Source: Gammaproteobacteria bacterium (lineage in GTDB: Bacteria > Pseudomonadota > Gammaproteobacteria > Pseudomonadales > JADFDG01). Taken from it: a stretch of DNA of 64,000 nt. The notes beneath the pieces are model-generated. The model saw only the letters and a program-made list of their open reading frames with translations, was not told where the DNA came from and did not search any database. The stretch is from positions 62,001-126,000 of the forward strand of contig JADFDG010000005.1 in assembly GCA_018262975.1 (NCBI GenBank), written 5' to 3'. Each line of letters begins with the position of its first letter. Within the stretch, counting starts at the first letter, position 1. Shown here in pieces: positions 5,402 through 6,409 of the stretch. The translations under genes and the position numbers were made by a program.

Positions 5402-6409
5402 ATGACCCGCCAGGACGAGGTCCTTGTCGCCCTGCGGCGCATCATTCGCGCCACTGACCAGAACTCCAAGCGTCTGGGCCGTGACACCGGCCTGACGGTG
5501 CCGCAGATCGTGCTGATGCGCGCGATCGCCACCAATCCCGGCTCCACCGCCGGCTTCCTCACCGGGCAGGTGAGCCTGTCGCAGGCCACCGTATCGACCA
5601 TTCTCGACCGGCTGGAGGAGCGAGGGCTGGTGACGCGCCAGCGCAACCCGCGCGACAAGCGCGTGGTCAACGTGGCACTCACCGACGCCGGCCGCGCGCT
5701 GCTCGAGCAGGCGCCGGCGCCGCTGCAGGAATCCTTCCGCGCCCGTTTCGAGATGCTGCCGGGCAACCAGCGCGAACTGATCGTGCAGGCCCTCGATACC
5801 GTCGCCACCATGATGGGCGCCGGCAACCTCGATGCCGCGCCCATCCTCACGCTGGGCAACATCCCGGAGCAACTGCCGTCGCCGGCCAGTCTCGCCACGT
5901 TGCGCCCGCCCACCGCCGATGACGGCCCGGCACTGCACGCGCTGGTGCGCGCCTGCCCGCCGCTCGATGAGAACTCGCGCTACTGCAACCTGCTGCAGTG
6001 CACGCACTTCGCGGACACCGCAGTGGTGGCCGAACACGACGGGCGACTGGTCGGCGCCATCACCGGCTACCGCCTGCCGGCGCGCCCGGACACGTTGTTC
6101 GTCTGGCAGGTAGCCACCCACCCCGACGCACGCGGCCACGGCCTCGGCAAGCGCATGCTCGCGCACCTGCTGGCGCGCGAATCATTGCAGGACATCAAGC
6201 ATCTCGAGACCACCGTCACCGCGGGCAACGCGCCGTCGGCGGCACTGTTCGACGCGTTCGCGCGCAGCCACGACTGCGGCGTGACACGCACACCACTGTT
6301 CGACCGCGAGCGCCACCTGGGCAACAGCCAGGACAGCGAGTGGCTGCTGCACATCGGCCCGCTTTCCCGTAGCGAGGGGGCCATGCCCCCGATCGCGGTT
6401 TGCCGATGA
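5402..6409 (+). CDS. ectA: MarR regulator - EctA (diaminobutyrate acetyltransferase) fusion
   Basis: A 335-residue fusion. Residues 1-145 are a MarR winged helix (LSQATVSTILDRLEERGLV recognition region, DKR wing at 85-87). Residues about 165-320 are an EctA-type GNAT domain with CPPLDENS (185-192), FVWQVA (233-238) and the acetyl-CoA loop ARGHGLGKRM (243-252). EctA converts L-2,4-diaminobutyrate and acetyl-CoA to N-gamma-acetyl-diaminobutyrate. In other bacteria a separate MarR protein (EctR) often precedes ectABC; here one open frame holds both, with no stop or restart between them. Residues 322-335 ([14 protein letters not shown]) are encoded by a REP unit and lie beyond the usual EctA end. 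GAGGTG at 5390-5395 is the ribosome site. Confidence 0.9.
   Translation: MTRQDEVLVALRRIIRATDQNSKRLGRDTGLTVPQIVLMRAIATNPGSTAGFLTGQVSLSQATVSTILDRLEERGLVTRQRNPRDKRVVNVALTDAGRALLEQAPAPLQESFRARFEMLPGNQRELIVQALDTVATMMGAGNLDAAPILTLGNIPEQLPSPASLATLRPPTADDGPALHALVRACPPLDENSRYCNLLQCTHFADTAVVAEHDGRLVGAITGYRLPARPDTLFVWQVATHPDARGHGLGKRMLAHLLARESLQDIKHLETTVTAGNAPSAALFDAFARSHDCGVTRTPLFDRERHLGNSQDSEWLLHIGPLSRSEGAMPPIAVCR

Follow-up and report, generated by a model that had tools for sequence, protein, structure and literature searches.

Does the frame at positions 5402-6409 of the window (the whole stretch of DNA analysed, 64,000 nucleotides) encode a genuine fusion of the repressor EctR with the enzyme EctA, and could such a protein control the operon in which it works? 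EctR and CosR are repressors of the ect genes (PMC5924519, PMC7876524). What signal makes them leave ect promoters is described as largely unresolved (PMC13342039).

The forward strand contains a single uninterrupted frame of 335 amino acids at 5402-6409, with no internal stop. It encodes an N-terminal EctR-type MarR repressor (residues 1-137), a linker and a complete EctA (residues 166-322). The sequence-only reading had proposed a complete MarR domain and a complete EctA in one frame, and this was borne out by the domain searches, in which both families scored above their cut-offs, as well as by the predicted folds. MarR (Pfam PF01047) matched residues 31-89 with an E value of 6e-16 and 58.5 bits (cut-off 24.6), and the EctA equivalog (NCBIfam TIGR02406) matched residues 167-321 with 184.8 bits (cut-off 120.6). 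The MarR half is about 49-58% identical to the EctR encoded beside ectA in Alcanivoracaceae. A search of the whole genome (3.3 Mb in 29 contigs, 99.95% complete, 0.21% contamination) returned the fusion as the sole ectA and one weak MarR match elsewhere. The fused gene is followed by ectB, ectC, a MarC-like gene and an ectD-like gene, in that order. The features of the locus are:

5340-5351, +: operator-like palindrome TTTGACATCAAA, the proposed site of the MarR domain, overlapping the putative -35 box
5341-5369, +: putative promoter from sequence, TTGACA (5341-5346), 17-bp spacer, CATAAC (5364-5369)
5389-5394, +: ribosome-binding site GAGGTG from sequence, 7 nt 5' of the ATG
5402-6409, +: ectR-ectA fusion gene, 335 aa (ORF and profile matches)
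5402-5812, +: EctR-type MarR domain, residues 1-137, recognition helix at about 58-75
5813-5896, +: junction and linker, residues 138-165, of which 142-159 are predicted disordered (alignment and predicted structure)
5897-6367, +: EctA GNAT domain, residues 166-322 (TIGR02406 and matches to EctA structures in the PDB)
6368-6409, +: REP-encoded C-terminal tail of 13 residues (323-335) and stop
6542-7840, +: ectB, diaminobutyrate transaminase (TIGR02407, 653 bits, cut-off 552)
7837-8232, +: ectC, ectoine synthase (NF009806, PF06339)
8229-8852, +: MarC-family membrane protein (PF01914), encoded between ectC and ectD; it may be a transporter or channel linked to ectoine
8867-9772, +: ectD-like ectoine hydroxylase (TIGR02408, 335.7 bits, just under the cut-off of 336.5; PhyH)

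No Rfam RNA or tRNA was found in the window. In another genome of the order, a MarC protein 64% identical to that of the window adjoins ectR (G026, L104:248).

The junction between EctR and EctA

About 45 Alcanivoracaceae species carry ectR and ectA in tandem on one strand as separate ORFs, and in most of the other Proteobacteria with both genes among the loci compared the two are divergent. The expectation that EctR is encoded separately elsewhere held in every relative examined, with the correction that in Alcanivoracaceae ectR is already the tandem neighbour of ectA. In this family the junction runs from ...DASPVLDLGAIDRAQP through a variable tail, a stop, an SD sequence, a start and a leader to ITFRKPESQDG. 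The junction of the window reads LDAAPILTLGNIPEQLPSPASLATLRPPTADDG, and the EctR tail, the stop and the SD, start and leader of ectA are all gone. A sequencing slip or a miscalled stop would leave these elements in place, while about 100-150 nt of them are absent. Codon bias in frame 1 amounts to 0.57 bits per codon for EctR, 0.44 for the junction and 0.51 for EctA, and is clearly negative in the other frames. The fusion is genuine, and no slip in sequencing accounts for it.

Two ways in which the gene could be less than it seems were weighed on this evidence. That an error of sequencing or assembly joined two separate genes is extremely improbable: the sequence comes from the assembly of a single strain, the only genome of its family in the set searched, but the missing spacer, the bias maintained in frame and the completeness and low contamination of the genome all argue against it. 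The two findings that the sequence-only reading had named as fatal to its claim, a frameshift merging two genes and an internal start producing free EctA, did not appear; no start codon with an SD sequence was found between 5642 and 5906, ahead of EctA. It is also very unlikely, if less so than an artefact, that the chain is a precursor, with cleavage at the linker or an internal start yielding free EctR and free EctA. Such processing would suit the predicted disorder of residues 142-159, and a GTG at 5630 (residue 77) is preceded by an SD-like GGAGG; this GTG, however, would retain half of the MarR domain, no SD-preceded start lies between 5642 and EctA, and EctA is not known to be processed.

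A second fusion of EctR and EctA was found neither in 96 relatives nor in genomes of the order (391), the class (369), the phylum (398) and the Alcanivoracaceae (46), about 1,300 genomes in overlapping sets, nor in the best 80 loci of a GTDB scan over 84,980 species; among plasmids, no record had one place covering 80% of the fusion query. Because the wide searches scored only a handful of candidates in each genome, a rare and divergent fusion could have escaped them.

The tandem arrangement of Alcanivoracaceae is a short step from fusion, since in three loci ectR and ectA share a frame and are separated by a single TAA (L003:5517-5519, L004:4336-4338 and L048:5565-5567), which in L004 and L048 belongs to the TAAGGA ribosome site of ectA. 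Judged from these sequences, one substitution would fuse the two genes. In the EctR tree the window's EctR falls inside the gammaproteobacterial EctR group on a very long branch (1.55), and its placement within that group was not resolved. A concatenated tree of EctR, EctA and EctB places the window beside Alcanivoracaceae with a local support of 0.94, but in 16 of 80 bootstrap trees. The trees do not settle the matter, and a tandem ancestor of the Alcanivoracaceae type appears likely from the gene order and the common promoter element. The fusion is probably lineage-specific, and its likely origin is a deletion that kept the frame in an ancestral operon with ectR and ectA in tandem. It would then be a clear example of a regulator that lost the intergenic region separating it from the leading gene of the operon and so merged with that gene.

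Three open frames of 374-380 aa in Alcanivoracaceae looked fused and were rejected as candidates; these are the loci L003, L004 and L048, with the TAA between their ORFs. EctA and EctB matches within one open frame of 626-665 aa were observed at five loci (L006, L016, L067, L099 and L130), and these apparent EctA-EctB fusions come from Ketobacter, Phenylobacterium and others.

Conserved residues, predicted structure and promoter

The recognition helix of the MarR half shows roughly the usual conservation (identity 0.74, baseline 0.78), and the DNA-reading residues T63, R79, R81, D85, K86 and R87 are retained. Similarity falls off in the C-terminal part of the EctR half (0.44 against 0.60), and substitutions affect four near-invariant residues (W122N, E123Q, Q124R and R133T). 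The fusion thereby lacks the C-terminal W-E-Q and R133 signature, as defined in the present analysis and not in the literature, which is present in at least 95% of 111 relatives. On the EctA side D189, N191, S192, Y194, W235, Q236, N276 and E313 are retained, and H310 is replaced by Q, where 134 of 138 relatives have H. This histidine, which in P. lautus EctA aligns to residue 155, presumably contacts the substrate. With four altered residues in EctR and H310Q in EctA, either activity may be altered.

In the AlphaFold2 model, MarR helices and wing extend over residues 3-137 and a GNAT domain over 166-318, and both folds are complete as modelled. The intervening segment 142-159 falls below a pLDDT of 50 and is predicted to be a flexible linker. 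The mean pLDDT of 79.8 and the pTM of 0.54 mean that the relative placement of the two domains is not predicted. The best PDB matches of the predicted fusion are EctA structures (Z about 21-22), and structural comparison matched MarR structures to residues 2-136. Solved EctA structures align over residues 158-325. Compared with the solved EctA proteins (PDB 3d3s, 6sjy, 6sk1 and 6sl8), with which it shares the full GNAT domain and the near-invariant residues D189, Y194, W235 and E313, the fusion has a MarR domain and linker in place of the N-terminal leader, H310Q and a REP-encoded tail. Its likeness to EctR and CosR lies in the MarR domain, the DNA-reading residues, the operator-like palindrome and the location among the ect genes; these repressors are separate proteins, whereas that of the window is joined to EctA and is devoid of the W122, E123, Q124 and R133 signature.

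The sequence-only reading had suggested the region 5333-5389 as a DNA target, and a conserved operator-like palindrome is indeed located there, at 5340-5351. The palindrome begins 62 bp and ends 50 bp 5' of the fused gene's start codon, and its motif TTWGANNTCWAA has a single match in the window and in the whole 3.3-Mb genome. The fusion thus apparently stands behind its own single operator-like site. Upstream of ectR the motif occurs in 37 of 40 codirectional loci, mostly from one family, and in 6 of 72 divergent loci, where shuffled sequences gave expectations of 0.1 and 0.2, respectively. These counts are descriptive only because the pattern was picked after viewing these same upstream regions. 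The geometry of the palindrome fits the EctR site of M. alcaliphilum, for which 8-bp half-sites and a 2-bp spacer are reported (PMC5924519). Its conservation may be partly owed to the overlapping -35 box, and TTGACA may have been kept for the promoter alone. A strict sigma-70 promoter scan reported nothing in 5200-6600, passing over the putative promoter because the last base of its -10 box is a C.

Alcanivoracaceae share with the window the gene order, the strand and the promoter and operator-like element, and their equivalent element has TTGACA and a TAAAMT-like hexamer 17 bp apart. They differ in having two ORFs and in the position of the element, which precedes ectR by about 105-225 bp (e.g. 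L048:4830-5000) and implies a long leader. The leader in the window would be only about 25 nt. In the tandem genes ectA has its own ribosome site, while the fusion would tie repressor to enzyme at 1:1.

Proposed repression and catalysis by one polypeptide

On balance, and with moderate confidence, we favour the reading that the fusion is a working autorepressor which is also an enzyme. The MarR half would dimerise and bind the palindrome at 5340-5351, and the bound fusion would block the overlapping -35 box, keeping the operon of ectR-A, ectB, ectC, marC (possibly) and ectD low at low salinity. An osmotic upshift would weaken DNA binding, the operon would be transcribed, and the same polypeptide would then supply the acetyltransferase step. 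That the gene is translated into a single chain, that this chain binds DNA and represses its own operon, that salt releases it and that it is catalytically active are all inferred here. As repressor and enzyme would be made 1:1, the output of EctA would itself set the strength of repression. Much repressor would thus be present whenever much enzyme is needed, and repression must be easily released; the design would be workable only if binding is readily released, by high salt or by a ligand of EctA. Ionic strength and an EctA ligand are possible alternatives for the release signal.

Several points speak against an autorepressor: H310Q, the large amount of repressor that would come with much enzyme, the occurrence in a single genome and the full palindrome in only 6 of the 72 divergent loci. 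The altered EctR residues and the very long branch could likewise reflect decay of the regulatory function, and loss of the C-terminal signature could mean either retuned sensing or decay. Decay of this kind underlies a rather unlikely alternative, in which the MarR half is vestigial, or serves only as a module for dimerisation or solubility, and the fusion acts as EctA while the ect genes are controlled otherwise. The lost signature and the long EctR branch fit this, and a 1:1 ratio of repressor to enzyme seems costly; yet the DNA-reading residues are retained, the MarR half stays open through all of its 137 residues, and the operator-like palindrome has been kept at the promoter as the only copy in the genome. 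A further alternative, somewhat less probable again, overlaps with the autorepressor-enzyme reading. Occupancy of the EctA active site (by diaminobutyrate, acetyl-CoA or the product ADABA) would be passed on through the linker to the MarR dimer and would set the affinity for the operator, making the protein a trigger enzyme. Feedback of substrate or product on DNA binding had been suggested by the sequence-only reading and is possible. BirA and PutA are known cases of an enzyme acting as repressor of its own pathway (PMC6978683), and the fusion resembles them in combining an enzyme and a DNA-binding domain in one polypeptide. BirA and PutA each combine a metabolic enzyme with the repressor of its pathway's operon, but their domains are unrelated to those of the fusion, and coupling of enzyme state to repression is established for them and not for the fusion. 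The most changed motif of EctR, at its C-terminus, adjoins the enzyme, so sensing may have been lost rather than gained. EnuR (MocR/GabR type, a wHTH fused to an aminotransferase-like domain) likewise regulates ectoine metabolism and carries a domain with the fold of an enzyme; it differs in belonging to other families, in using its enzyme-like domain as sensor and in controlling ectoine catabolism.

The fusion offers a natural system for testing how ectoine, a salt protectant, has its synthesis controlled by salt stress, and how a 1:1 ratio of repressor to enzyme still supports very high osmolyte production. One purified protein could show whether release of the repressor is brought about by ligands of the ectoine pathway or by salt alone. 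Control by a trigger enzyme, if true, would reveal the cue, long sought, to which an EctR-type repressor responds. No published report of an EctR-EctA fusion was found in literature searches or in the accessible parts of the ectoine reviews, in line with the sequence-only reading, which knew of no characterised example, and a search for literature on MarR-GNAT fusions returned nothing relevant. Genome annotations include MarR-GNAT proteins without an assigned function.

REP-like elements and the C-terminal tail

The last residues of the fusion, 323-335, are encoded by a REP-like palindrome (copy at 6369-6389) and lie outside EctA proper, which corrects an earlier reading. Codon bias is lost in this tail, and residues 326-335 are disordered in the model. 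The REP-like palindrome GGGGCATGGCCCCCTCKCTAC has 63 matches in the window, including those at 6369-6389, 6415-6435 and 6447-6467, and its 17-base core has 523 matches in the genome with one mismatch allowed. The sole Y1_Tnp match (PF01797) of the genome was located at G000:C25:134513-134851 (L184:1357-1923), about 8.5 kb outside the window, in a frame of 188 aa whose upstream end falls inside a REP copy. This protein is a candidate RAYT transposase for the REP elements.
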